A DNA stretch of 17,512 nucleotides from Actinomycetes bacterium (GTDB taxonomy: Bacteria; Actinomycetota; Acidimicrobiia; Acidimicrobiales; RAAP-2). The stretch's first letter is position 1, and each line of letters begins with the position of its first letter. Both the position numbers and the translations under genes were made by a program. Of this stretch, positions 547-17,512 are shown one piece after another. The DNA is taken from contig JAKCEC010000011.1 of the NCBI GenBank assembly GCA_021841725.1, positions 1 to 17,512 on the forward strand. Reading direction: 5' to 3'. Under the pieces are notes generated by a model. That model was not told the origin of the DNA, searched no databases, and saw only the letters and a program-made list of their open reading frames with translations.

Positions 547-2172
547 TCAGCGGCGCGTCGGCAGCGCCAGGGGCGTGGCGTCGCTCAGCGCCTCGCGCGC
601 GTGGTAACTCGAGCGCGTGAGGGGTGAGGATTGCACGTGCGCCAGTCCCGCGCGGCGCCCCCGTTGGGCGAGGTCGTCGAATTCCGCCGGCTCCCAGTAG
701 CGCGCCACCGGCAGGTGGTTCGCCGTGGGGCGCAGGTACTGGCCGATGGTCGCGATCGACACCCCCACCGCGGCCAAGTCGACGAGCACCTCCTCCACCT
801 CGTCCGCCGTCTCCCCGAGTCCCACCATCATCCCGGACTTGGTGGTCAGTCCGGCGGCCACCGATCGCGCCAGAACGGCGAGCGAGCGATGGTACGCCGC
901 GCTCGGACGCACCGCGCGTTGCAGGCGCGCCACGGTCTCCATATTGTGATTCAACACGTCGGGGCGAGCGTCGATGATGAGCTGCAGCGAGTCCCGGTCC
1001 CCCTTCAAATCACTGATCAAGACCTCGATATTGGTCTCGGGCGATCGCTCGCGGACGGCACGGATCGTGTCGGCGATCGCCCCGGCGCCACCGTCGGCCA
1101 GGTCGTCACGCGCGACGCACGTGATGACCGCGTGGCTGAGCCCCAAGCGCACGACCGCCTCGGCCACCCGTGCGGGCTCACTCGGGTCCAGGGCCAGGGG
1201 CTTACGCGTGTCGATGAGACAGAAGCCGCACGCGCGCGTGCAGCGCTCGCCGTTCACCATGAACGTGGCGGTACCGCTCTGCCAGCATTCGAAGATGTTG
1301 GGACAACCGGCCTCTTCGCACACGGTGGTCAGGCGCAGGTCCTCGGTGAGGGTGCGCAGGCTCTGGTACTCCGTGCCCATGTGCGCCTCGATCCGCAGCC
1401 ACTCGGGCTTACGCGCCGTGATCGCGACGGCGTCGTCGGGGTTCACGCCCGCGCGGCGCAAGCGACGAATCATCGGTCGTTCGTCGGAGGTGCGCGCCGC
1501 GGAACGGTCCACGCGCGCCACGCGCTCGTCGCTCCCGAGACGGATCGCGAGCTCCTGGCCCAGGCGCTCTTCCACCTGCGCCTCGGTGACGTCGAGGCCC
1601 AGCGACTTCATCGAACCCACGGGCTTGTCCGGGATGCCGCACGGAACGATGGCGGCGAACCCCGCTAGGTCGATGTCGACGTTGAGCGCGACGCCGTGCA
1701 GGCTGCGCCGTTCGCCGCGGGCGTTGCGCACGGTGCGCACGCCGACGGCGGCGATCTTGTGCGGACGCGTGTCGAGTCGCGCCCAGACGCCCGGATAGCC
1801 CTCGAGGCGGCCAATCTCACCGAGTCGGCCCTCGGGGTCGAAGGCCCGCACCGTGGCGATGACGGCGTCCTCCAGGCGACCCACGTGTTGACGACCCGAC
1901 CCCGGGTCGTCGCGGACCGTCACCACCGGCCACGCCACCGCCTGCCCGGGGGCGTGGTAGGTGACGTCGCCGCCACGATCGGTCGTGACCACGTCGGCGT
2001 CTAACGAATCCGCCGGCACCAAGAAGTGGTCCTCTTGGGCGCGGACCCCACGCGTGTAGGTGGGCGGATGCTCGAAGAGTAAGACGTAGTCCTCCGTCGA
2101 TTCGACGAGGGCGCGCTGCAGGGCGTCGGCCTCGGCGAAGCTCACCCGCCCCCAGTGCCGACGACGCAGCAC
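547..2172 (-). CDS. LipB-LipA fusion: octanoyltransferase joined to lipoyl synthase
   Basis: A single 541-aa frame contains both enzymes of endogenous lipoate assembly. Residues 1-215 are LipB, which moves octanoate from acyl carrier protein to E2 lysines: GGDVTYHAPGQ at 67-77 (families usually have HGPGQ), the Lys of the Cys/Lys dyad at K139 (PHKIAAVGV), and the Cys at C178 (IVPCGIPDK). Residues about 250-541 are LipA, the radical-SAM enzyme that inserts two sulfurs: the auxiliary-cluster cysteines C285, C290 and C296 (CEEAGCPNIFEC), the SAM-cluster cysteines C311, C315 and C318 (CTRACGFC), NHNMETV at 408-414, QYLRPT at 478-483, and the C-terminal RSSYHA (520-525) carrying the conserved serine. 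The domains are joined by a charged linker near 213-245. M234 could start a separate LipA, but no ribosome-binding site precedes it. The start is GTG, overlapping the E2 stop by one base (TAGTG), so translation is probably coupled. All catalytic residues appear present. Confidence 0.93.
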   Translation of the reverse strand: MLRRRHWGRVSFAEADALQRALVESTEDYVLLFEHPPTYTRGVRAQEDHFLVPADSLDADVVTTDRGGDVTYHAPGQAVAWPVVTVRDDPGSGRQHVGRLEDAVIATVRAFDPEGRLGEIGRLEGYPGVWARLDTRPHKIAAVGVRTVRNARGERRSLHGVALNVDIDLAGFAAIVPCGIPDKPVGSMKSLGLDVTEAQVEERLGQELAIRLGSDERVARVDRSAARTSDERPMIRRLRRAGVNPDDAVAITARKPEWLRIEAHMGTEYQSLRTLTEDLRLTTVCEEAGCPNIFECWQSGTATFMVNGERCTRACGFCLIDTRKPLALDPSEPARVAEAVVRLGLSHAVITCVARDDLADGGAGAIADTIRAVRERSPETNIEVLISDLKGDRDSLQLIIDARPDVLNHNMETVARLQRAVRPSAAYHRSLAVLARSVAAGLTTKSGMMVGLGETADEVEEVLVDLAAVGVSIATIGQYLRPTANHLPVARYWEPAEFDDLAQRGRRAGLAHVQSSPLTRSSYHAREALSDATPLALPTRR

Positions 2173-3347
2173 TATCGCTCGCTCCGCACGTCGAGGCCCG
2201 CCAGCAACTCCCCCACCCGCTCGAGGTACCGGGTGGCCCCCGCCGCGTCACAGACCCGGTGGTCGAACGTCAGACCCAGGATCACGCGCCGACCCACCTC
2301 CACGCTCGCGACCCCCTCACGGGTGACCACGACCGGAACGCGGCGCACCGCGCCGATACTCAATACCGCCACCTGGGGCTGGATGATGATGGGCTCGCTC
2401 CACAGCGTGTTCGCGCTGGTCGCCGCGGCGACCGTGAAGGTGCCGCCCATGAGGTCGTCCGCGTTGAGTTGGCGCGAACGCACGCGCTCGTCCAGTTCGG
2501 CGCTGCGCCGGGCCAAGGCGCGCAGGGTGAGGCCCGCGGCGGCGTGGACCACCGGCACCAACATCCCGTCGTCGTCGACGTGGCGGGTGAAGCCCACCGA
2601 GATGGTCCGGTGCAGTGTCAATTGGTCGTCGGCGTAGGTGGCGTTCAAGTATTCGAACTCGGCCAACGCCCGCACCGCCGCGATGGTCACGAGCGCCTCG
2701 TCGGTGATGGCGAAGCCCTCTCGCGTCTCGCGCCCGAGCGCGTCCAGCGCGTCGACCACCCCGGCGTCCACCTCCACCGCCACGAAGCCGTGGGGGGCCG
2801 AGAGCACCGAGACGCTCATGTGCTGGCCCATGCGACGTCGACCGTTGGACAGCGCGACCACGACTTCCTCGGTCGGTCCCTGGGCCACGGCGCGCTCGGC
2901 GTCGCGACGGGTGATCGCCCCGCCGGTGCCGGTGCCGGCGACCGTCGAGGGTTCCACCCCGCCGTCCATCAGGATCCGCCGCACCACGGGCGAGACGACG
3001 ACGCCGTTGGCGGTGACGGCCTCAGACGTTGTCGGTCGGGGCGCGTTCGTGGCCGCGGCGGGGGCCGGGGCGCTCGTCGGCGCCGCGGTCGCGGCCGTCG
3101 CGGCGGGCACGGCGCCCTCGTCGATGACCGCCACGCGGGCGCCGGTCTGGACCGTGTCGCCCTCCTCGGCGAGGATCTGCGTCAAGACGCCCGCCGCGGG
3201 CGACGGCATCTCGGAGTCGACCTTGTCGGTCGACACTTCAAAGAGTGGTTCGTCGCGGGCGACGGCGTCGCCCACCTTCTTGAACCATTGGGTGATGATT
3301 CCTTCGGTGACCGACTCACCCAACGACGGGAGGGTGACGTCAGCCAA
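2172..3347 (-). CDS. sucB: 2-oxoacid dehydrogenase complex E2 (dihydrolipoamide acyltransferase)
   Basis: The 391-aa product has one lipoyl domain (1-80, lipoyl-lysine K42 in VSTDKVDSEMPSP), an Ala/Pro/Thr-rich linker (about 79-112), a peripheral-subunit-binding domain (about 117-153) and a catalytic acyltransferase domain (about 165-385). The catalytic His and Asp are H363 and D367 in FDHRVCDAAGA; the family usually has DHRxxDG, so the Gly after the Asp is Ala here. The N-terminus resembles actinobacterial SucB/DlaT proteins, which serve the pyruvate and 2-oxoglutarate complexes; which acyl group it carries cannot be decided, and no E1 gene is in the window. The start is TTG at 3347, preceded by GAGG 8 nt upstream, and overlaps the 3' end of lpd by 8 nt. 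E2 is a natural substrate of the LipB-LipA protein encoded immediately downstream; in Mycobacterium dlaT, lipB and lipA are likewise near neighbours. The symbol is approximate. Confidence 0.9.
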   Translation of the reverse strand: MADVTLPSLGESVTEGIITQWFKKVGDAVARDEPLFEVSTDKVDSEMPSPAAGVLTQILAEEGDTVQTGARVAVIDEGAVPAATAATAAPTSAPAPAAATNAPRPTTSEAVTANGVVVSPVVRRILMDGGVEPSTVAGTGTGGAITRRDAERAVAQGPTEEVVVALSNGRRRMGQHMSVSVLSAPHGFVAVEVDAGVVDALDALGRETREGFAITDEALVTIAAVRALAEFEYLNATYADDQLTLHRTISVGFTRHVDDDGMLVPVVHAAAGLTLRALARRSAELDERVRSRQLNADDLMGGTFTVAAATSANTLWSEPIIIQPQVAVLSIGAVRRVPVVVTREGVASVEVGRRVILGLTFDHRVCDAAGATRYLERVGELLAGLDVRSER

Positions 3348-4755
3348 GGTGGATACCTCGTCCCGCCAACGCCAGCAACGTCTCGCCGAAGGTCTCCGAC
3401 AACGACGGGTGCGGCTGGATGAGCGCGGCCGCCTCTTCGGCGGTGGCCTCCCAGTTCACGGCGTAGTACCCCGCGCCGAGTTGCTCGGTCACCCAGGGTC
3501 CGGCCATGTGCACCCCGAGAATCTGCCCGGCGGTCCCGTCGGCGCGCTTCTCCGCGATGATCTTCACCACACCCTCGGTCTCGCCGATGATCTGCGCGCG
3601 GCTGTTGCCACTGAAGGGGTCCTTCTTCACGACGACGTCGTAGCCGCGTTCCTTAGCGGCGGCTTCGGTCAGACCACAGAAGGCCACCTCCGGATTGGAG
3701 TAGATGGCCCACGGGACGCGGTCGTAGTCGACGGGGACCACCGCCTCACCCATGATCGTCTTGATCGTGACGACGGCCTCGGCGAACGCCACGTGCGCGA
3801 GTTGGGGCGTGCCCGCCACCACGTCACCGACGGCGAAGACCTGGGGGTTGGCGGTGCGCATGTAGCCGTCGGCCACCACGAAGCCGCGCTCGTTCACCTC
3901 CACGCCCGTTCCCTCACCCAGGAGCCCTTCGGTGCGCGGACGACGCCCCACCGAGACCACGACCATTTCGACCTCGACGTCGGCGCCGCCCTCGATCTTG
4001 ATGGCGGTGGTCTTCTTGGCGGGGGCGTGACCGGTGATCGTGACGCCCGTCTGGATCTCAATGCCGCGCTTCTTGAACGCGCGTTGCACGACGGTCGCCA
4101 CTTCGCTGTCGCAGCCGGCCAGGATTGAGGGCAGGCCCTCCAAGACGGTGACCCGCGTCCCCATGTCGGCGAGCATCGACGCGAACTCACAGCCAATGGC
4201 CCCCCCACCGATCACCGCGGCCGTCGCGGGCAGCGAGGTGAGGTTGAGGAACTCGTCGGAGGTGACGACGAACTTGCCGTCCACGTCGAACCCCGGCAGG
4301 GTGCGCGGGACGGAACCGGCGGCGATGATGACGTGGGTACCCTCGAGCAACGCGCCGGCGTCGGCGCCCTCGAGGACGGTGACCCGCTGGCCCGCGTCCA
4401 GTCGACCGGTGCCCTCGAAGAGGGTGACCTTGCGACCCTTCAAGAGTCCCGACAGTCCCTTATGGAGGCGATCGACGATCTCGTTCTTGCGGTTCTGGCT
4501 CACCGCGAAGTCGACCGCGACGCCCTGGGTGGTGATACCGAAGGCCGCCGAGTGCTCGAGCGTGCGTCGCACGTGGGCGGTCTCGAGGAATTCCTTGGCG
4601 GGGACGCACCCGCGGTGCAGGCACGTGCCCCCCACCTTGTCGCGTTCGATCAGGGCGATGTGCAGACCGGCCGCCGCACCGTAGAGAGCGGCGGCGTAGC
4701 CACCGGGTCCTCCTCCGATAATGACGACATCGAACTGCTGGACCTCGTGTGCCAC
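3340..4755 (-). CDS. lpdA: Dihydrolipoamide dehydrogenase (E3)
   Basis: This 471-aa FAD-dependent disulfide oxidoreductase reoxidises the dihydrolipoyl arm of E2 and reduces NAD+. Numbered from the GTG start, GGGPGG (14-19) binds FAD, the redox disulfide is C45/C50 in GGTCLHRGCVPAK, a second Rossmann motif (VIGGGAIGCEFA) binds NAD, AVGDV is the second FAD motif, and the C-terminal active-site pair is H449/E454 in QPHPSLSETFGE. All expected catalytic residues are present and the length is normal. I chose GTG 4755 because AAGGGAA lies 5 nt upstream, while an in-frame TTG at 4770 has no ribosome-binding site. Downstream it overlaps E2 by 8 nt, so the two are surely co-transcribed. Upstream, 71 nt separate it from rnhA; that gap holds a possible minus-strand -10 (TAGGAT, 4800-4795), but its best -35 match is poorly spaced. 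Confidence 0.95.
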   Translation of the reverse strand: MAHEVQQFDVVIIGGGPGGYAAALYGAAAGLHIALIERDKVGGTCLHRGCVPAKEFLETAHVRRTLEHSAAFGITTQGVAVDFAVSQNRKNEIVDRLHKGLSGLLKGRKVTLFEGTGRLDAGQRVTVLEGADAGALLEGTHVIIAAGSVPRTLPGFDVDGKFVVTSDEFLNLTSLPATAAVIGGGAIGCEFASMLADMGTRVTVLEGLPSILAGCDSEVATVVQRAFKKRGIEIQTGVTITGHAPAKKTTAIKIEGGADVEVEMVVVSVGRRPRTEGLLGEGTGVEVNERGFVVADGYMRTANPQVFAVGDVVAGTPQLAHVAFAEAVVTIKTIMGEAVVPVDYDRVPWAIYSNPEVAFCGLTEAAAKERGYDVVVKKDPFSGNSRAQIIGETEGVVKIIAEKRADGTAGQILGVHMAGPWVTEQLGAGYYAVNWEATAEEAAALIQPHPSLSETFGETLLALAGRGIHLG

Positions 4756-4826
4756 GGTGGTTCCCTTCAAAGAGTCTGTTTTGTCCCCCGCGCAATCCTA
4801 ATGAGTCCGGGCGGTGGTCATCGGCG

Positions 4827-7844: not shown

Positions 7845-7889
7845 GGCGCGCCGCGGCGCCCTCCAGCATGGAACTTTGGCCCTCACCAG

Positions 7890-7895
7890 TAGGCT
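7890..7895 (+). promoter_or_regulatory. Putative -10 (TAGGCT) of the sufC1-sufS-sufU operon
   Basis: TAGGCT fits TANNNT and lies exactly 7 nt before the GTG at 7903, with no Shine-Dalgarno sequence present, so a leaderless transcript is likely. A GGAAC at 7870-7874 resembles an ECF-sigma -35, but its spacing to a matching -10 is not right, so I do not claim it. Confidence 0.4.
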
Positions 7896-7902
7896 GTCTG
7901 CC

Positions 7903-8664
7903 GTGACCACGCCCCTCCTCGAACTTCGAAACCTCCACGCCGAGGCCGACGGTGCCACCATCTTGCGCGGCGTCGACCTGGTGGTGCACGCCGGCGAGGT
8001 CCACGCGTTGATGGGGCCCAACGGGGCCGGTAAGTCCACCCTGGCCAACGTCGTCATGGGGCACCCGGGGTACGTGATCACGAGCGGATCGCTGTTCTTC
8101 CAGGGACAGGACATCGCCTCGTGGACCCCCGACGAGCGCGCGCGCGCCGGCGTCTTCCTCGCCTTCCAGTACCCCGAGGCGATCAGCGGGGTGTCGGTGG
8201 TCCAGTTCCTGCGCCAGGCGATCGCCGCGCGCAAGGGGCTCGACGAGCTCAGCGTCCTCGAGGTGCGCCTGGACCTGATGGAGTGGATGGACCGCCTCGG
8301 TATGGACCGGGCCTTCGCCGAACGCCACCTCAACGACGGCTTCTCGGGCGGCGAGCGTAAGCGCAATGAAGTGCTGCAGATGGCCCTGCTCGCCCCGGCC
8401 CTCGCCCTGCTCGACGAGACCGACTCGGGACTGGACATCGACGCGCTGCGCATCGTGGCGCGCGGCGTGCGCACGGTGCGTGACCAGCACCCCGACATGG
8501 GCGTGGTGGTCGTGACGCACTACGTCAAACTCCTCGAAGAGATCCAGCCCGACCGCGTGCACGTGCTCATCGACGGGCGCATTGAGACCTCGGGTGACGC
8601 CTCCCTCGCCCAGACGATCGAGGAACACGGCTACGACGGGTTGCGCCGCCCGGTGAGCCGGTGA
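7903..8664 (+). CDS. sufC: SUF Fe-S assembly ATPase SufC (copy 1)
   Basis: The 253-aa ABC ATPase has Walker A GPNGAGKST (38-46), the SufC-type Q-loop FQYPEAISGVS, signature FSGGERKRNE, Walker B LALLDETDSGLDIDALR and the H-loop THY. These match canonical SufC proteins closely, including QYP and DETDSGLDIDAL. SufC powers the SufB-SufD scaffold on which Fe-S clusters are built. The start GTG 7903 follows a TAGGCT -10 by 7 nt; a TTG at 7876 in the same frame lacks support. Its stop overlaps the sufS start, so it is coupled to the cysteine desulfurase. It is one of two SufC genes in the window and the more canonical one, yet it is not in the sufB/sufD operon. Confidence 0.95.
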   Translation: MTTPLLELRNLHAEADGATILRGVDLVVHAGEVHALMGPNGAGKSTLANVVMGHPGYVITSGSLFFQGQDIASWTPDERARAGVFLAFQYPEAISGVSVVQFLRQAIAARKGLDELSVLEVRLDLMEWMDRLGMDRAFAERHLNDGFSGGERKRNEVLQMALLAPALALLDETDSGLDIDALRIVARGVRTVRDQHPDMGVVVVTHYVKLLEEIQPDRVHVLIDGRIETSGDASLAQTIEEHGYDGLRRPVSR

Positions 8665-9896
8665 TGCGCTTCGACCCGAAGCTCGTGCGCGGAGACGTCC
8701 CGTTGCTGAACCGAGTGATCAACGGTCGACCGATCACCTACTTGGATTCGGGCGCCTCGTCGCTCACCCCGCGCCCGGTCATCGAGGCCATGGACCGCTA
8801 CTACCAGCACCATCACGCCAACGTGCACCGCGGGGTCTACCAGACCGCCAACGAGGCGACCGCCATCTACGAAGGCGCGCGCGAGGCCACCGCGCGCTTC
8901 TTGAACGCCCCGGGTGGGTCCCCGGAGATCGTGTTCACCAAGAACGCCACCGAGTCCTTCAACCTGCTCGCGCGCTCCTGGGGCGCCACCTTCTTGGGGC
9001 CCGGTGACGTCGTGCTCGTGAGCGAGATGGAACACCACGCGAACATCGTGCCGTGGTTCCAGTTACGCGAGACTCACGGCGTCGAGGTGCGCTTCATCCC
9101 GGTGGGCGACGACTTCCGCCTGGACCTCAGCCGCGTCGAAGAGGCGATGGCCGGGGTCAAGTTGGTCTCGGTGACCGCGATGAGCAACGTGCTCGGCACC
9201 ATCAACCCCGTGCGCGCGCTCGCCGACCTGGCCCACGCCCACGGGGCCCTCATCGCCATCGACGGGGCCCAGTCCGTCGCGCACCTGCGCACGGACCTGG
9301 TCGACCTCGACGTCGACTTCCTCGCGTTCTCGGCGCACAAGATGCTCGGGCCCACCGGACTCGGGGTCTTCTGGGCCCGCGAAGAGTTGCTGCGCGCCAT
9401 GCCCCCCTTCCTCGGCGGGGGCGGCATGATCAAGGACGTCAGCACCGACGGCTTCACGCCCGCGACGGGTCCCTCGAAGTTCGAGGCGGGGACGCCCCCC
9501 ATCGCCCAGGCGGCCGGGTTCGCCGCGGCCCTGCGGTACCTCGACGGCCTGGGTATGGACAACGTGGCGGCCCACGAACACGACCTCACCGTCGACGCGC
9601 TCACGCGCCTGGCCACGACTTTCGACGGGCGCGTGCGCGTGATCGGACCCGACAACGGGGTCGAGCGCGGCGGCGTGATCTCCCTCGACGTCGAGGGGGT
9701 CCACCCCCACGACGTCGCCCAAGTCCTCGATCAGTTCGGCGTCTGCGTGCGCCCCGGCCACCACTGCGCTAAGCCCCTGATGAAACGCTTCGGCCTCGCC
9801 GCCACCGCGCGCGCCTCCTTCGGGCCCTACTCGCTGACCAGTGACACCGACGTCCTGCTCGAGGCCCTCACCCACGCCGTCGAGATGTTCGCCTGA
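8664..9896 (+). CDS. sufS: Cysteine desulfurase SufS
   Basis: The 410-aa PLP enzyme removes sulfur from cysteine and supplies it to SUF assembly. The PLP-binding lysine is K226 (AFSAHKMLGPTG), the PLP-stacking His is H124 (SEMEHHANIVPW), D200 lies in AIDGAQS, and the catalytic persulfide cysteine is C368 (RPGHHCAKPLM), followed by the RAS segment (383-385). The short GHHCAKP active-site loop is typical of group II (SufS) desulfurases, which need a sulfur-transfer partner such as SufU. I chose ATG 8664, which shares one base with the sufC1 stop (TGATG) and has GGTGAG 6 nt upstream; GTG 8661 would add one residue through a GTGA overlap. sufU follows 2 nt after the stop. Confidence 0.97.
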   Translation: MRFDPKLVRGDVPLLNRVINGRPITYLDSGASSLTPRPVIEAMDRYYQHHHANVHRGVYQTANEATAIYEGAREATARFLNAPGGSPEIVFTKNATESFNLLARSWGATFLGPGDVVLVSEMEHHANIVPWFQLRETHGVEVRFIPVGDDFRLDLSRVEEAMAGVKLVSVTAMSNVLGTINPVRALADLAHAHGALIAIDGAQSVAHLRTDLVDLDVDFLAFSAHKMLGPTGLGVFWAREELLRAMPPFLGGGGMIKDVSTDGFTPATGPSKFEAGTPPIAQAAGFAAALRYLDGLGMDNVAAHEHDLTVDALTRLATTFDGRVRVIGPDNGVERGGVISLDVEGVHPHDVAQVLDQFGVCVRPGHHCAKPLMKRFGLAATARASFGPYSLTSDTDVLLEALTHAVEMFA

Positions 9897-9898
9897 GC

Positions 9899-10363
9899 AT
9901 GGCCAACCTCGACGACCTCTACCGCGAGATCATCCTCGACCACTACCGTTCACCGCGTAATCGCGGCGAACTCGCCCCGCCGGCGCACCGCACCGAGGGA
10001 TTCAATCCGCTCTGCGGCGACGAGATCGTGCTGTACGCGCTGGTGGAGAACGGCGTACTCCTCGACATCAAGTTGACCGGCCACGGGTGCTCCATCTCAC
10101 AGTCGTCCTCCTCGCTGATGAGCGCCGCCGTGAAGGGCAAATCCCTCGACGACGTGCGCGAGACCATTGCCACCTTCAAGGCGCTGATGACGACGCCCGA
10201 ACACACGCCGGGCGACGACGAGCAGGCCGTGAGCGACGCGAACCTGCGCCGCCTCGGCGAGCTCGCGGCCCTGGCGGGCGTGGTGAAGTTTCCGGTGCGC
10301 ATCAAGTGCGCGACGCTGGCCTGGAATACCCTGGCCCAAGCGCTCGACGAGATCGACGCCTAG
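9899..10363 (+). CDS. sufU: Zn-dependent sulfurtransferase SufU
   Basis: The 154-aa protein accepts sulfur from SufS. The zinc ligands and transfer cysteine are C39 and D41 (NPLCGDEI), C64 (GHGCSISQSSSS) and C137 (RIKCATLAW), matching B. subtilis-type SufU. The roughly 20-residue insertion (MTTPEHTPGDDEQAV, about 97-111) that separates SufU from IscU is present. The N-terminal LDDLYREIILDHYRSPRN is typical. It lies 2 nt after the sufS stop in the sufC1-sufS-sufU operon. The gene ends 6 nt from the convergent stop of the LytR-CpsA-Psr gene, with no visible terminator. Confidence 0.96.
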   Translation: MANLDDLYREIILDHYRSPRNRGELAPPAHRTEGFNPLCGDEIVLYALVENGVLLDIKLTGHGCSISQSSSSLMSAAVKGKSLDDVRETIATFKALMTTPEHTPGDDEQAVSDANLRRLGELAALAGVVKFPVRIKCATLAWNTLAQALDEIDA

Positions 10364-11771: not shown

Positions 11772-12497
11772 CTACGGCGCGAGGTCACGGAACGGCTCGT
11801 AACCGTCCCTCTCGAGAATCTCCGCCATTTCGGCCCCACCGGTGGCCACCACGCGACCCTCGGAGACCACGTGGATGGTCGTGGCGGTCAGTTCGTGCAA
11901 CAGGCGGCGAAAATGCGTGATCGCCAGCACGCCGCACTGCCATTCGGTGGTCGCCTCCTGCAGGCGCCGCGCGACGGCCCCCAGGGCGTCGACGTCCAAC
12001 CCCGAGTCCACTTCGTCGAGCACCGCGAAACGCGGTCGCAGGATCGCCAGCTGCACCATCTCGGCGCGTTTGCGCTCACCACCGGACAGGTCGACGTTGA
12101 CGAATCGGTCGAGGACCTCGGGTCGCAGTTCCACCCGACGCGCCTCGTCGCGCATGCGCTCGAGCAAGCCCTCGCGGGCCGCGCCCGCCGCCGCGAGCAG
12201 ATCCACGGGGCGTACCCCGGGCACCTCCATCGGGTGCTGCAGCGCCAAAAAGAGACCGTGGCGCGTGCGCTCGGTGGCCGAGAGGTCGAGCAGCTCCACG
12301 CCGTCGAGGCGCACCGAACCGCCCAGAACGCGGTAGCCCGGGTGACCGGCGAGGGCGTGGGCCAGCGTCGACTTTCCCGAGCCGTTGGGCCCCATGATCA
12401 CGTGGACCTCACCCGAGGACATCGACAGGTCGAAGCCCCGGAGCACTTCCTTGCCCGCCACCTCGACGCGCAAACCCTCAATCGTCAGCGTGCTCAA
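11772..12497 (-). CDS. sufC: SUF Fe-S assembly ATPase SufC (copy 2, diverged)
   Basis: The 241-aa ABC ATPase has Walker A GPNGSGKST (36-44), Q-loop LQHPMEVPGV (86-95), signature LSGGERKR (137-144), Walker B FAVLDEVDSGLD (157-168) and H-loop H195 (THF). All ATPase motifs are intact. Compared with usual SufC it has QHP for QYP, DEVDSGLD for DETDSGLD, THF for THY and a shorter helical segment between Q-loop and signature. It is the last gene of the sufB-X-sufD-Rieske operon, the canonical actinobacterial position for SufC, so it probably partners SufB and SufD. No permease or binding-protein gene is near, which argues against a transporter ATPase. The start is TTG 12497 with GGGTGG 7 nt upstream; it overlaps the Rieske gene stop in a 4-nt TTGA. 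Which of the two SufC copies serves which subunit is unknown. Confidence 0.88.
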   Translation of the reverse strand: MSTLTIEGLRVEVAGKEVLRGFDLSMSSGEVHVIMGPNGSGKSTLAHALAGHPGYRVLGGSVRLDGVELLDLSATERTRHGLFLALQHPMEVPGVRPVDLLAAAGAAREGLLERMRDEARRVELRPEVLDRFVNVDLSGGERKRAEMVQLAILRPRFAVLDEVDSGLDVDALGAVARRLQEATTEWQCGVLAITHFRRLLHELTATTIHVVSEGRVVATGGAEMAEILERDGYEPFRDLAP

Positions 12498-12808
12498 CTC
12501 ATCACCACCCGAAGTCGACCGTCCTCCACGACGACGTCGTAGCGCGCCACCGGTCGCGTCGCCGGGAAGGACGTCGGTTGACCGTCCTTCAGATTGAACA
12601 TGGCGCCGTGACGCGCGCACTCGATCTCGCACGCGGCGGCGTCCACCTCGCCCTGGGCGAGCGAGAAGTCTTCGTGGCTGCAGCGGTCGTCGAGCACGTA
12701 CACGTCGTTCTCGATCCGGACCACGACCAGGACCCGCCCGTTCACCTTCACCTGGGTGGCCCGCGCCGGCTCGTAGTCGTCGAGCGTTCCGATGTCGTAG
12801 GCGCTCAC
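12494..12808 (-). CDS. Rieske [2Fe-2S] ferredoxin in the SUF operon
   Basis: The 104-aa protein carries one Rieske motif: C43-x-H45 (DRCSHEDFSL) and C64-x2-H67 (CARHGAMF), the two Cys and two His that bind a [2Fe-2S] cluster. It matches the small ferredoxin subunit type of non-heme dioxygenases. Such genes sit between sufD and sufC in Streptomyces-type suf operons, so its position here is the expected actinobacterial one; a role in electron supply or cluster handling during assembly is inferred, not shown. No dioxygenase gene is present. The start is GTG 12808, overlapping the sufD stop by 4 nt (GTGA), and its stop overlaps sufC2 by 4 nt (TTGA), so translation of the three genes is probably coupled. 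Confidence 0.92.
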   Translation of the reverse strand: MSAYDIGTLDDYEPARATQVKVNGRVLVVVRIENDVYVLDDRCSHEDFSLAQGEVDAAACEIECARHGAMFNLKDGQPTSFPATRPVARYDVVVEDGRLRVVMS

Positions 12809-14025
12809 GGTGTCACTATCTCCACTCCGCGCAGGGTCTCGGCGAGGTCTCGTTCGACGACGTCGGCCAATTCCGGGGGCAGCGTCGCGAGCATCTCGTA
12901 GAAGAAACCTTGAATCATGAGCCGTTCCGCGTCGGCGCGGGTGACGCCGCGCGACTCGAGGTACCAGCGCTGCAGTTCGTCGAGGGGGCCGACGCTCGAG
13001 GCGTGCGCGCACATCACGTCGTTCTCGCGAATGTCGAGGTTGGGCACGCTGTCGGCGTGGGCGTGCGGCGAGAGCAGCAGGTTGAGGTTGGTCTGGCGGG
13101 CGTCGGTGCGCTTGGCGCCCTTCTCAATCTCGATGAGTCCGGTGTAGACCGAGCGCGATTCGTCCGCCACCGCGCCCTTGGAGAGCAGGGTGGAGCGGGT
13201 GCGTCCCACCCGGTGGTACTGACGGGTCCGAAAGTCGTGGACCTGGTCGCCGGAACCGAGGAACGTGGTGCGCAACTCGTTCTCCGCTCCGGTACCGAGA
13301 AACTCCGCGTCGTTGCGCGACCGGTTGTAGTGCGCGCCAATCGAAATGACCGCTTGGCGGAGCCGCGCGTCGCGACCCAGGCTGCCGGTCGAGCGCGCGA
13401 CGTGCCAGGCACTGGCGTCGAGGCGTTGGTAGGTGCTCACCCGCAAGGAGGCGTTGTCGGCGAGGTCGTAGCGCGTCAGGGGCACCACCAGGGCGTTGAC
13501 GCCCCCCTCGAGGTACTCCACCACTGACGCCTGTGAGGAGCGGCCCATGGTGACGTGCACTTGCGCGAAAGAGGTGTCCGACGCCGTGGTGTTCACGATC
13601 ACGATGGGCGAGGTCACGTGCGCCGTCTCCGCGACGCGCAGGGTGATCGCGTAGGGCGAGAGGGCGCAGTTCATCTGCGCGAACGCGTCGGAGGCGTACT
13701 GGGGCGACCACGTCGAGGCGACGCGCTCCACGCTCACGCCCTCGAGGTCGCCGGTGACTTCCACGACCTCGGCGTCGACCACGCGCACCACCATGCCGGC
13801 GTGCGCGGCCAGTTCTTGCGCGAAGGGCGACATCTCGGGGGCGGCGCCCCGCGAGACGACCGCGAAGCGGTCCAGGTCGAGTTCACCCAGGGGTGCGTAG
13901 CGCCACACTTCGTCGACCGTCGTGGGCAGGCCGAGTTCGCTGAAGGCACGCCACGCCTCGCGTCGGGCGTCGGGATTCTCGAGGGTCTCGAGGTGGGCCT
14001 GGGCGGACTGCGCGAAGTTTGTCAT
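12805..14025 (-). CDS. sufD: SUF scaffold protein SufD
   Basis: The 406-aa protein belongs to the SufB/SufD beta-helix family that forms the SufBCD scaffold. Family signs are the N-terminal WRYAPLGELDLD, a run of repeating short strands through the middle, NLNLLLSPHAHADSVPNLDI and the C-terminal CAHASSVGPLDELQRWYLESRGV (H341 near the position of the functional E. coli SufD His in HGATVG), then AERLMIQGFFYEML. I chose ATG 14025 because SufD proteins start near MTNF; a GTG at 14073, directly after the preceding stop, would add 16 proline-rich residues. No Shine-Dalgarno sequence precedes ATG 14025; TACACT 16 nt upstream may give a short-leader transcript. It overlaps the Rieske gene by 4 nt. 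Confidence 0.93.
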   Translation of the reverse strand: MTNFAQSAQAHLETLENPDARREAWRAFSELGLPTTVDEVWRYAPLGELDLDRFAVVSRGAAPEMSPFAQELAAHAGMVVRVVDAEVVEVTGDLEGVSVERVASTWSPQYASDAFAQMNCALSPYAITLRVAETAHVTSPIVIVNTTASDTSFAQVHVTMGRSSQASVVEYLEGGVNALVVPLTRYDLADNASLRVSTYQRLDASAWHVARSTGSLGRDARLRQAVISIGAHYNRSRNDAEFLGTGAENELRTTFLGSGDQVHDFRTRQYHRVGRTRSTLLSKGAVADESRSVYTGLIEIEKGAKRTDARQTNLNLLLSPHAHADSVPNLDIRENDVMCAHASSVGPLDELQRWYLESRGVTRADAERLMIQGFFYEMLATLPPELADVVERDLAETLRGVEIVTP

Positions 14026-14041
14026 AGGGGAGGGCTTGGAA

Positions 14042-14047
14042 AGTGTA
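14042..14047 (-). promoter_or_regulatory. Possible internal -10 (TACACT) upstream of sufD
   Basis: On the minus strand TACACT, a fair -10 match, lies 16 nt before the sufD ATG in the 48-nt gap after the four-Cys gene. It could drive sufD-Rieske-sufC2 separately from sufB. No -35 is visible, so this is weak. Confidence 0.25.
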
Positions 14048-14073
14048 CTGGCTGGGGGGGCGTGTTCCGGCAC

Positions 14074-14430
14074 CTAACGGCGCCAGAACCTCCACCCGCG
14101 TCGCTGACGCTTCTCCATCTCGTCGAGGACGCGACGGCGCTCCTCGAAGAGCTCGGGGGCCACGGCGTCGATGATGTCACTGGCGGCGTTGAGTACGTCG
14201 CGGCGATTTTGGACGGGCACGTCGGGTGCGGGTGGCTCTTCGACGTTGGGCCGTCGCGCCAGGGATCCGTGCGACCACCCCACGTCGGCCAGGCGCCGCT
14301 CGTAGGTGAGACAATTCTCCGGGCAACTCCAGGGCTGGTCCGGCGCGTTGCCAAGGACGCAGAAGCGCGCAACTTCACCAGAGTCATACGTGCGGCTCTG
14401 GAAGTGCTTGCATTCCTCGCGCATTCCCAT
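14074..14430 (-). CDS. Uncharacterised four-cysteine protein between sufB and sufD
   Basis: The 118-aa protein has four cysteines, C7, C24, C36 and C40, spaced C-x16-C-x11-C-x3-C, with the last pair in WSCPENC. This is the pattern of a metal or Fe-S site confined to the first 40 residues. A conserved-looking GWSHGSL (51-57) follows, then a Pro/Glu linker (61-72), a charged helical stretch (about 75-108) and a strongly basic, aromatic C-terminus (RRGWRFWRR, 110-118). I do not recognise a named family. It lies in the operon between sufB (60-nt gap with a hairpin) and sufD (48-nt gap), so a role in SUF assembly, for example as a cluster carrier or scaffold partner, is inferred from position and cysteines; zinc binding is the alternative. 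ATG 14430 has GGAG 5 nt upstream; ATG 14424 is possible. The frame agrees in GC-rich codon use with its neighbours. Confidence 0.85.
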   Translation of the reverse strand: MGMREECKHFQSRTYDSGEVARFCVLGNAPDQPWSCPENCLTYERRLADVGWSHGSLARRPNVEEPPAPDVPVQNRRDVLNAASDIIDAVAPELFEERRRVLDEMEKRQRRGWRFWRR

Positions 14431-14464
14431 GTCGTCTCCATTGTGCCACGCCGTCCGGGTTCGC

Positions 14465-14482
14465 ACGCGGGGTGACCCGCGT
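14465..14482 (-). other. GC-rich hairpin between sufB and the four-Cys gene
   Basis: ACGCGGG and CCCGCGT form a perfect 7-bp stem around a 4-nt loop (TCAC on the transcribed minus strand), starting 8 nt after the sufB stop codon. No T-rich tract follows, so it is not a classic intrinsic terminator. It could attenuate read-through or protect the sufB message 3' end, making SufB more abundant than the downstream products; that role is inference. Confidence 0.4.
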
Positions 14483-14490
14483 CCAAAGTC

Positions 14491-15891
<1,401 letters not shown>

Positions 15892-15983
15892 CGTGCTCCT
15901 TCTCGGAATATTCCCTATGCCCATAGTACTTACTCGAGAACGCGTTCTGACAGAAAAATCGGTTCGTCTGGCAGAGTGGAGCA
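15892..15983. promoter_or_regulatory. Divergent sufB/oligopeptidase promoter region with three palindromes
   Basis: In 92 bp there are AGAACGCGTTCT (15937-15948, perfect 12-bp palindrome), CTATG-CC-CATAG (15915-15926, 5-bp arms) and GGAATATTCC (15905-15914, perfect 10-bp palindrome). A minus-strand TACTAT (15928-15923) is a likely sufB -10 and overlaps the second palindrome; the first lies in its spacer/-35 zone. On the plus strand, CTGACA (15947-15952) and CAGAGT (15972-15977, 6 nt before the ATG at 15984) are possible promoter elements for the peptidase, though 19 bp apart. The motifs do not match the IscR, SufR, Fur or IdeR consensus as I know them. Regulator binding is inference. Confidence 0.5.
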
Positions 15984-17512
15984 ATGTCCCTTGCCCCGCG
16001 CGTCCCTCAACGTCCCTTCGAAATTAGCCGCCACGGCGACACCCGTGTCGATCCCTACTACTGGCTGAACGAGCGCGAGAACGAGGAGGTCCTCGCGCAC
16101 CTGCGCGCCGAGAACGGGTACCTGGCGAGCGAACTCGCGCACCTGGCCCCGCTCGAGAGTCGACTCTTCGACGAGATCAAGGCGCGCATCGAGGAGACCG
16201 ACATCTCGGTGCCGGTGCGCCGGGGCGATTGGTGGTACTACGAGCGCACGCGCGAGGGGCTCAATTACCCCATCAGCTGCCGTCGGCCGGTCACCCCCGC
16301 GGTGGACGCACCCCCCGTCGTCACCGGTGACGACGACGTCGCCGACGAACAGGTCATCCTGGACGAGAACGTCGAGGCCGAGGGGCACGACTTCTTGTCG
16401 GTGGGAATCCTCGCGGTGAGCCCCGACGATCGGTGGGCGGCGGTGGGCCTCGACTTCGACGGTGACGAGCGCCACCGGGTGAGCGTGCGGCCACTGGCCG
16501 GCCAGGCGCCCCTCGACGACGTGCTCGACGACGTCTATTACGGGTTCGCGTGGGCCGGCGACAGTCGCCACTTCTTCTACACGCGCGTCGACGACGCGAT
16601 GCGACCCTGGCAGGTGTGGCGCCACGAGATCGGCACCGCCGCGCAGGCCGACGTGCTCGTCATGCAAGAAGACGACGCGCAGTTCAACGTGTCGGTGGGC
16701 CGTAGCCGCGACGACGCGGTCATCCTGGTGTCACTCGCGTCGTCGTCCACCTCCGAGATGTACTACCTCGACGCGATGCACCCGACGGCCGACTTCACGG
16801 TGGTCGAGGGTCGCCGCCACGACATCGAATACAACCTCGAGCATTTCCGCGACCGCGCGGGTCGCGACTGGTGGCTCAAGATCACCAACGAGGACGCCAC
16901 CGACTTTCGCCTGCTGGCGCGGGGGGTCGGCGAGGACGCGCCCTGGCGCGAACTGATCGCCCACCGACCCGGCCAACGACTCGACGGGGTGGACGCCTTC
17001 GCCGATTTCCTCGCCATCTCCGAGCGCCACGACGGGAGCGCGGCGGTGCGCATCGCGCCGTTGCTCGAGGGTGCGGACCCCTTCGGCGACCACCTCCTCG
17101 AGCGGGCCTCCTTCGTTGACGGGGGACCCGCACCGAGCACGGTGTCGGTGTCGGCCAACGCGATGTTCGAGACCACCCGACTGCGGGTGTCGCTCTCGTC
17201 GCTGGTGACCCCGCACCTGGTGGCCGACGTCGACGTCGCCACCGGCGCCACCACGGTGCTCAAACAGCAGCGCGTCCTGGGCGGCTACGACCCGACGAAC
17301 TACGTCACCGGGCGACTGTGGGTGCTCGCGAGCGACGGGGTCCGCATCCCCGTCTCCGTCGTCGCGCGCCACGACCTCCTCGTGCGCCGCGCCGACGGGG
17401 ACCTCGCGCCGGTGGGCCCCACCCCCCTGGTGCTCTACGGGTACGGGAGTTACGAGATCTCCATCGACCCCACCTTCTCGTCCCTGCGCCTGTCGCTGCT
17501 CGACCGCGGCGT
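15984..17512 (+). CDS. ptrB: Oligopeptidase B / prolyl oligopeptidase family (S9A), N-terminal part
   Basis: The frame opens at ATG 15984 and runs off the window after 509 codons with no stop. The N-terminus (RHGDTRVDPYYWLNERENEEVLAHLRAEN) is typical of S9A peptidases, followed by the DWWYYERTREGLNYPISCRRP segment and a beta-propeller region (about 100-440) that gates access to the active site. The last residues, LVLYGYGSYEISIDP followed by SLRLSLLDRG, are the start of the alpha/beta-hydrolase catalytic domain; the Ser, Asp and His of the triad lie beyond the window. Oligopeptidase B cleaves short peptides after Arg or Lys in the cytoplasm, but specificity cannot be judged from this part. GGAG lies close before the ATG (2 nt), too close for a good Shine-Dalgarno site, and CAGAGT 6 nt upstream suggests a leaderless transcript. 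It diverges from sufB. Confidence 0.88.
   Translation, partial: MSLAPRVPQRPFEISRHGDTRVDPYYWLNERENEEVLAHLRAENGYLASELAHLAPLESRLFDEIKARIEETDISVPVRRGDWWYYERTREGLNYPISCRRPVTPAVDAPPVVTGDDDVADEQVILDENVEAEGHDFLSVGILAVSPDDRWAAVGLDFDGDERHRVSVRPLAGQAPLDDVLDDVYYGFAWAGDSRHFFYTRVDDAMRPWQVWRHEIGTAAQADVLVMQEDDAQFNVSVGRSRDDAVILVSLASSSTSEMYYLDAMHPTADFTVVEGRRHDIEYNLEHFRDRAGRDWWLKITNEDATDFRLLARGVGEDAPWRELIAHRPGQRLDGVDAFADFLAISERHDGSAAVRIAPLLEGADPFGDHLLERASFVDGGPAPSTVSVSANAMFETTRLRVSLSSLVTPHLVADVDVATGATTVLKQQRVLGGYDPTNYVTGRLWVLASDGVRIPVSVVARHDLLVRRADGDLAPVGPTPLVLYGYGSYEISIDPTFSSLRLSLLDRG

Follow-up and report, generated by a model that had tools for sequence, protein, structure and literature searches.

A reading frame of 118 codons lies between sufB and sufD in an actinobacterial suf cluster and raises the question of what a small four-cysteine protein would do inside a scaffold operon. 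The cluster is part of the window, by which we mean the whole 17,512-nt stretch analysed here (positions 1 to 17,512 of contig JAKCEC010000011.1, assembly GCA_021841725.1), and the gene is called X in the following. A sequence-only reading of this DNA had proposed X as a candidate SUF accessory factor of a family it did not recognise. Should X indeed act in SUF, a partner specific to one lineage would have joined the scaffold complex, and an ancient machine would be seen still to gain parts. Even as a passenger, X would represent a large conserved Cys4 family lacking a Pfam or NCBIfam match. What is new here is the protein family and the arrangement of a known suf operon.

X is a real gene between sufB and sufD

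The minus strand of the window carries sufB, X, sufD, a Rieske-type ferredoxin gene and sufC in this order, with no gene intervening among the first three, and the plus strand carries a second sufC-type gene, sufS and sufU (Table 1). The frame itself and the TIGR01980 and SUFBD_core matches of its flanks confirm what had been described there, a 118-aa four-cysteine frame between sufB and sufD with a basic, Trp/Arg-rich tail. The cysteines C7, C24, C36 and C40 form the pattern C-x16-C-x11-C-x3-C within the first 40 residues, and the tail is KRQRRGWRFWRR. The spacer from the sufB stop to the ATG of X is 60 nt, and that from the X stop to sufD is about 48 nt, taking the ATG at 14025 as the likely start of sufD. 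SufD scored 206.9 bits with TIGR01981, slightly below the cut-off of 222. SufB and SufD of the window retain residues which we take to be functional in E. coli (C263 and C407 in SufB, H357 in SufD). The Rieske-type ferredoxin probably starts near 12805. A scan for sigma-70 promoters and terminators gave no match.

Table 1. Positions of gene X, its parts and the suf genes in the window
Feature	Position	Strand	Remarks
Gene X, 118-aa Cys4 protein	14074..14430, stop included	-	ATG at 14430
Cys7 codon of X	14410..14412	-	
Cys24 codon of X	14359..14361	-	
Cys36 codon of X	14323..14325	-	
Cys40 codon of X	14311..14313	-	
GGAG, likely ribosome-binding site of X	14436..14439	-	5 nt before ATG
N-terminal Cys4 domain of X, residues 1-52	14275..14430	-	predicted beta-hairpin 10-14, 20-24
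Predicted long helix of X, residues 73-115	14086..14214	-	AlphaFold2; ends in basic Trp/Arg tail
sufB	14491..15984	-	TIGR01980 687 bits, cut-off 346.4; 60 nt upstream of X
sufD frame	12805..14073	-	likely ATG 14025; SUFBD_core 1e-62
Rieske-type ferredoxin	12494..12805, end of ORF 12494-13012	-	PF00355 3.6e-15
sufC	ORF 11772..12632	-	TIGR01978 244.9 bits; conserved part from near 12490
Second SufC-type ATPase	7876..8664	+	TIGR01978 318 bits; immediately before sufS
sufS	8661..9896	+	Aminotran_5 6e-128; adjacency in relatives
sufU	9899..10363	+	NifU_N 9.9e-20

We compared the first 56 codons of X with those of 11 relatives and found dN of 0.023-0.106 and dS from 0.69 to saturated. The codon changes were mostly at position 3, and against the relative L031 there were 2, 1 and 22 changes at positions 1, 2 and 3. 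Since the changes are biased to position 3 and dN is low compared to dS, the frame is not a product of chance; X is a real gene under purifying selection. Alternative frames at this place are a longer one with a GTG start at 14466 (130 aa) and others on the opposite strand. The 130-aa frame was rejected since conservation begins only at M1/M3 of the 118-aa frame.

A large family with invariant cysteines

A single-sequence search retrieved 1268 homologues of X at E ≤0.001, a profile search at least 7999 (8000 candidates scored), and a profile built from distant members gave 1488 matches. The best 120 proteins of each search (360) together with the window's own X made a set of 361, and the exact C-x16-C-x11-C-x3-C pattern was present in 361 of 361, so the invariance expected of the four cysteines held. 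Among 224 locus entries the spacing was 16/11 in 223 and 15/11 in one, although these entries are not an independent test because a relaxed version of this very motif had served to select them. Six more loci outside the motif filter were read by eye; five of them had all four cysteines, and in the sixth (L078) the start of the X gene was unreadable. Besides the cysteines, R13, G18, P33, P37 and R46 were invariant in 121 aligned sequences.

Searching X against Pfam (including WhiB, E up to 1) and NCBIfam gave no match at threshold, and each database returned a single unrelated match below it. We took these, PF18280 (E 0.042) and urea carboxylase (E 0.26), as chance. The two databases also showed no match to the SufA, SufE, SufU, SufT or SufR models and none to a helix-turn-helix or other DNA-binding family. 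A Pfam search of 13 distant homologues gave no usable family, and DUF1163 (E 0.0022 in one of the 13) was likewise taken as chance. There was no usable match in PHROGs for three family members and nothing usable among phage records, and the best PDB sequence found by profile was unrelated (E 0.62). The profile and PDB-sequence searches thus agree with the original failure to recognise the family, as they match no characterised one. Among the papers listed by searches of an open-access library, which covers few subscription papers, none reported on gene X, so that this absence is weak evidence. We conclude that X belongs to an undescribed family, large and strongly conserved around its four cysteines, without a Pfam or NCBIfam match.

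AlphaFold2 predicted a hairpin and a long helix for X (mean pLDDT 79.7, pTM 0.35), and a hairpin for the N-terminal domain alone (mean pLDDT 74.9, pTM 0.53). The predicted hairpin is positioned between C7 and C24 and is followed by an irregular stretch which holds C36-x3-C40. By block, residues 71-110 average a pLDDT of 88-94 and the last block 61. Foldseek against the PDB returned 0 matches at E ≤0.001 for X and for its N-terminal domain. The list for X was headed by ribosomal chains with a top E of 0.48, rank 1 being 6z6m_LW, a chain of the 80S ribosome which we take to be eL24. We regarded the ribosomal and WW-domain entries as noise, and a second inspection gave no significant match either.

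Zinc ribbons usually have two CxxC-type knuckles. X may be like zinc-ribbon or eL24/TRASH-type zinc domains in its predicted four-cysteine beta-hairpin followed by a long helix (Foldseek top E 0.48), but differs from zinc ribbons in its fixed 16/11/3 spacing, kept in all 361 proteins, instead of CxxC knuckles. The cysteine spacing of Wbl proteins differs from that of X. X resembles them, judged from sequence alone, as a small actinobacterial four-cysteine protein, but it matched neither the WhiB Pfam model nor a DNA-binding family. In PMC11995493, Wbl proteins are described as small actinobacterial proteins whose four cysteines bind a [4Fe-4S] cluster.

Position of X within Acidimicrobiales

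Kinship of genomes follows the labels of the search tool, and the titles of named relatives identify the order of the window as Acidimicrobiales. Counting the window's own genome, its genus and its family, a match to X was present in 94 genomes of the order, and 91 remained after removing three that have only a short paralogue (G014, G173, G269). Coordinates gave the position of X in 31 of these and fetched loci in 59, while in G145 X lies at a contig end; X was counted as near when on the same strand and ≤5 kb from sufB and/or sufD. This was so in 80 of the 91 genomes with full-length X, across many families, and in 14 of 14 genomes of the window's own genus. The sides never conflicted: sufB, when seen, was upstream of X and sufD downstream, and 37 of the 59 loci showed the two together. 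Two genomes carried X beside sufU/sufS and not sufB/sufD (G087, G114; loci L206, L209), and two were not judgeable (G059, G145). In the seven genomes G193, G225, G254, G256, G258, G285 and G289, X was seen next to sufU/sufS in none and ≤5 kb from sufB/sufD in none, with part of one flank hidden by a contig end in G254 and G289.

The 80 named contigs closest to X in sequence are a biased set. In 79 of them sufB preceded X, sufD followed it, or both, and 70 had the full pair; L039 had neither. An opposite-strand GNAT-type gene separates sufB from X in 12 of these 80 loci, and an opposite-strand enoyl-CoA-hydratase-type gene separates X from sufD in 59, both assignments resting on a Pfam check of one member each. 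Because of these intervening genes, a shared sufB-X-sufD transcript is not universal.

Distribution of the family

X was matched in 148 of the 296 class genomes drawn, that is in the window's own genome, 13 of the same genus, 5 of the same family, 75 of the same order and 54 of the same class; at least three of the 148 matched only through the short paralogue. A sufB-type match was found in 280 of the 296, in 267 of them over the cut-off. Since many class genomes have SUF but no X, SUF can do without X, which is thus no general component of the system. Two order genomes among the misses listed lacked X (G161, G295), and both also lacked a sufB match. The order genome G014, a single contig, has sufB and only the short paralogue.

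In the draw from the phylum, X was matched in 32 of 396 genomes, all of the same class. Six of the misses listed belong to this class as well. The sorting of the list suggests that the 344 misses beyond those listed all belong to other classes; if so, none of 358 genomes from outside the class has X, and we read the family as restricted to Acidimicrobiia. The named matches bear titles of Acidimicrobiales, Acidimicrobiaceae and other Actinomycetota, and a few of Acidobacteria or Saccharibacteria. Four contigs titled Saccharibacteria or Acidobacteria (L042, L053, L062, L070) have suf loci of the Acidimicrobiales type and are therefore probably mislabelled MAGs.

Class-specific proteins of Acidimicrobiia have been reported before: Table 2 of PMC5962788 gives signature proteins of this class, function unknown, as accessions and lengths. 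X is like them in being class-specific, and several listed there are of similar size, the comparison being one of length.

Position of X outside the order

Elsewhere in the class, 31 loci of X from other orders were inspected over a span of ≤6 kb per side, and none had sufB, sufD, sufS or sufU there; these loci come from 26 genomes, and six are shortened by a contig end. The placement of homologues beside suf genes, suggested by the window, therefore holds for the order (80 of 91 genomes) but not beyond it. A 185-aa class gene, rph or both were ≤6 kb from X in 21 of these loci, and genes for a racemase (murI-like) and a metallo-beta-lactamase often lay beyond them on the upstream side. Pfam confirmed the racemase and metallo-beta-lactamase families in L116, which upstream also has a threonylcarbamoyl-AMP synthase and a cysteine-synthase-type PLP enzyme. 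Weak sufC-like matches in L116 and L137 (29-43% identical) are probably other ABC proteins. In this class-wide branch X ends in tails of consecutive Lys and Arg residues.

The 185-aa protein (L116 5401-5955, plus strand; G000:C38:915-1466) has no family match. Its gene is widespread, being present in 64 of 100 class genomes. The genome of the window has it too, on a contig other than that of the window. Its length equals that of one signature protein in the table of PMC5962788, a likeness of length alone. In 20 X loci with scattered contexts no neighbour was common to four or more loci, and Pfam assigned ten neighbours from six of such loci to unrelated families or to none.

We also checked 14 sufB/sufD loci of the class, taken exclusively from genomes that had shown no X linked to suf. 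In 6 of the 14 the sufB and sufD match ends were 10-141 nt apart, which leaves no room for a gene, and in the other 8 the gap of 2.1-6.0 kb was occupied by longer frames. There was no X match and no convincing other small four-cysteine gene between sufB and sufD in these 14 loci. Since sufB and sufD can be adjacent where X is elsewhere or absent, X looks inserted into the scaffold operon.

A short paralogue of the Cys4 domain

In 20 loci of the order (L179-L198) we found a short paralogue with the Cys4 domain, mostly of 57-70 aa and in three cases of 84-104 aa. A gene for NIL, LarE or HemQ was ≤6 kb away in 19 of them (14 when counting NIL/LarE only), the exception being L198. The paralogue is on the strand opposite to these genes and convergent with them where adjacent. 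Examples of the neighbours are LarE (TIGR00268, 278 bits), NIL (PF09383, 62 bits) and chlorite dismutase/HemQ (158 bits). The Cys4 domain thus has a second sulfur/iron setting, which is not an operon, in a second undescribed subfamily.

History of the suf placement

A tree was built from 102 sequences (first 70 residues, 70 columns kept). It is weak, as 55 of its 99 inner branches are drawn open, and so it was used for coarse grouping only. The 20 short paralogues are set apart (98). A group of 56 (SH-aLRT 93) contains 40 of the 41 suf-linked sequences, the two sufU/sufS ones and 14 others, and outside it are 20 rph-context sequences and the suf-linked L211. The suf label changes 10 times on the tree as drawn, and the starred branches force at least two changes.

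The simplest reading of these poorly resolved branches would be one move into the suf locus, after which linkage was lost several times and an unlinked branch passed in part to other families by transfer. The family would have existed first in Acidimicrobiia outside the suf locus. X was probably inserted between sufB and sufD once, in an ancestor of Acidimicrobiales, and would have been mostly retained there. The grouping is consistent with such a single origin of the suf placement.

A candidate accessory at the SUF scaffold

We favour the reading that X is an accessory at the SUF scaffold in Acidimicrobiales, because the sufB-X-sufD placement is kept across the order. This is plausible, and we put its probability at roughly one in two. 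Given the split of contexts, with 0 of 31 other-order loci by suf genes, a SUF role is plausible for the branch of this order and does not define the family. To that extent the original accessory proposal stands, in which X may be a cluster carrier, a scaffold modulator or a metal sensor. X is like SufA, SufE, SufU, SufT and SufR in being a small gene in or beside a suf operon with cysteines that are likely important. It is unlike them since it matches none of their models, is found in one class and is suf-unlinked outside one order in the loci examined.

According to the favoured reading X would be made together with SufB and would consist of an N-terminal domain for a metal or cluster, a short linker and the helix. 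Since the Cys4 set is fixed and comes without other catalytic signatures, the four cysteines may bind a single Zn or a single Fe-S cluster. A partner is suggested by the charged helix and its basic aromatic end, and in the model the C-terminal helix would dock on it, most likely on the SufBCD scaffold or a client. X could then help cluster assembly, hand-over or tuning in this order. X does not stand in for a missing A-type carrier, as an A-type carrier gene was present in 20 of the 21 genomes searched, the window's own included. DUF59 matches were found in 16 of these 21 genomes, and 16 of the 27 matches are in open frames of 375-411 aa, which are probably Mrp/ApbC.

A more specific version is tentative. 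X would be a new SUF component whose Cys4 domain binds a cluster or metal and whose helix docks on SufB or SufBCD. It would have been drawn from a class-specific family and fixed in the scaffold operon of one order, with sister proteins serving the NIL-LarE-HemQ locus. Suf-linked, unlinked and absent X inside one class make a natural contrast by which the role is directly testable.

The main rival is that X is a zinc-stabilised housekeeping adaptor for RNA, the ribosome or the membrane, with its basic tail, merely co-expressed with suf in one order. The wider family near rph and the 185-aa gene (21 of 31 loci) and not near suf, the Lys/Arg-run tails of the class-wide branch and the ribosomal chains at the top of the Foldseek list, not significant at E 0.48, would fit an adaptor. 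However, the suf position kept in 80 of 91 order genomes exceeds what is expected of an idle passenger, CxxC knuckles as usual in zinc ribbons are missing from the cysteine pattern, and the short paralogue sits by sulfur and heme genes. We hold this alternative to be possible but less likely than the accessory role.

X could also be an Fe-S, iron or redox sensor which governs suf expression or SufBCD activity in the place of SufR. Four invariant cysteines and a basic tail would suit such a function, and TIGR02702 gave no strong SufR match: the best one in the window's own genome (73% complete) had 38.3 bits against a cut-off of 178.8, and 0 of 60 class genomes exceeded the cut-off. However, this cyanobacterial model is a poor test, since 12 of 14 control genomes match it and only one is over the cut-off. 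Scores of 115-126 bits do occur in four of the 60 class genomes, of which two belong to the order. Moreover, X matches no helix-turn-helix or DNA-binding family, is inside the operon and not at its head, and has no suf genes nearby in 31 of 31 loci beyond the order. A sensor is thus improbable compared with the accessory role. That X is a spurious by-product of the high GC between sufB and sufD, where many frames overlap, is refuted by the low dN/dS, the thousands of homologues and the exact cysteine spacing, and we give it practically no credence.

Other features of the window and related loci

Both SufC ATPases of the window (7876-8664, plus strand; 11772-12632, minus strand) retain the Walker A, signature and Walker B motifs, and a sufC-type match adjoining sufS recurs in many relatives. 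A scaffold combining two different SufC chains is possible.

The minus strand of the window at 547-4770 carries a lipoylation set. One protein of 541 aa fuses a lipoyl ligase-type domain (LplA-B_cat) to a lipoyl synthase domain of the radical-SAM kind; an E2 lipoyl acyltransferase and a dehydrogenase of E3 type complete the set.

In three loci the sufB matches are interrupted by about 0.5-1.2 kb (L101 4246-6822, L247 1534-4095, L203 4060-7179), as an intein or an insertion would do.
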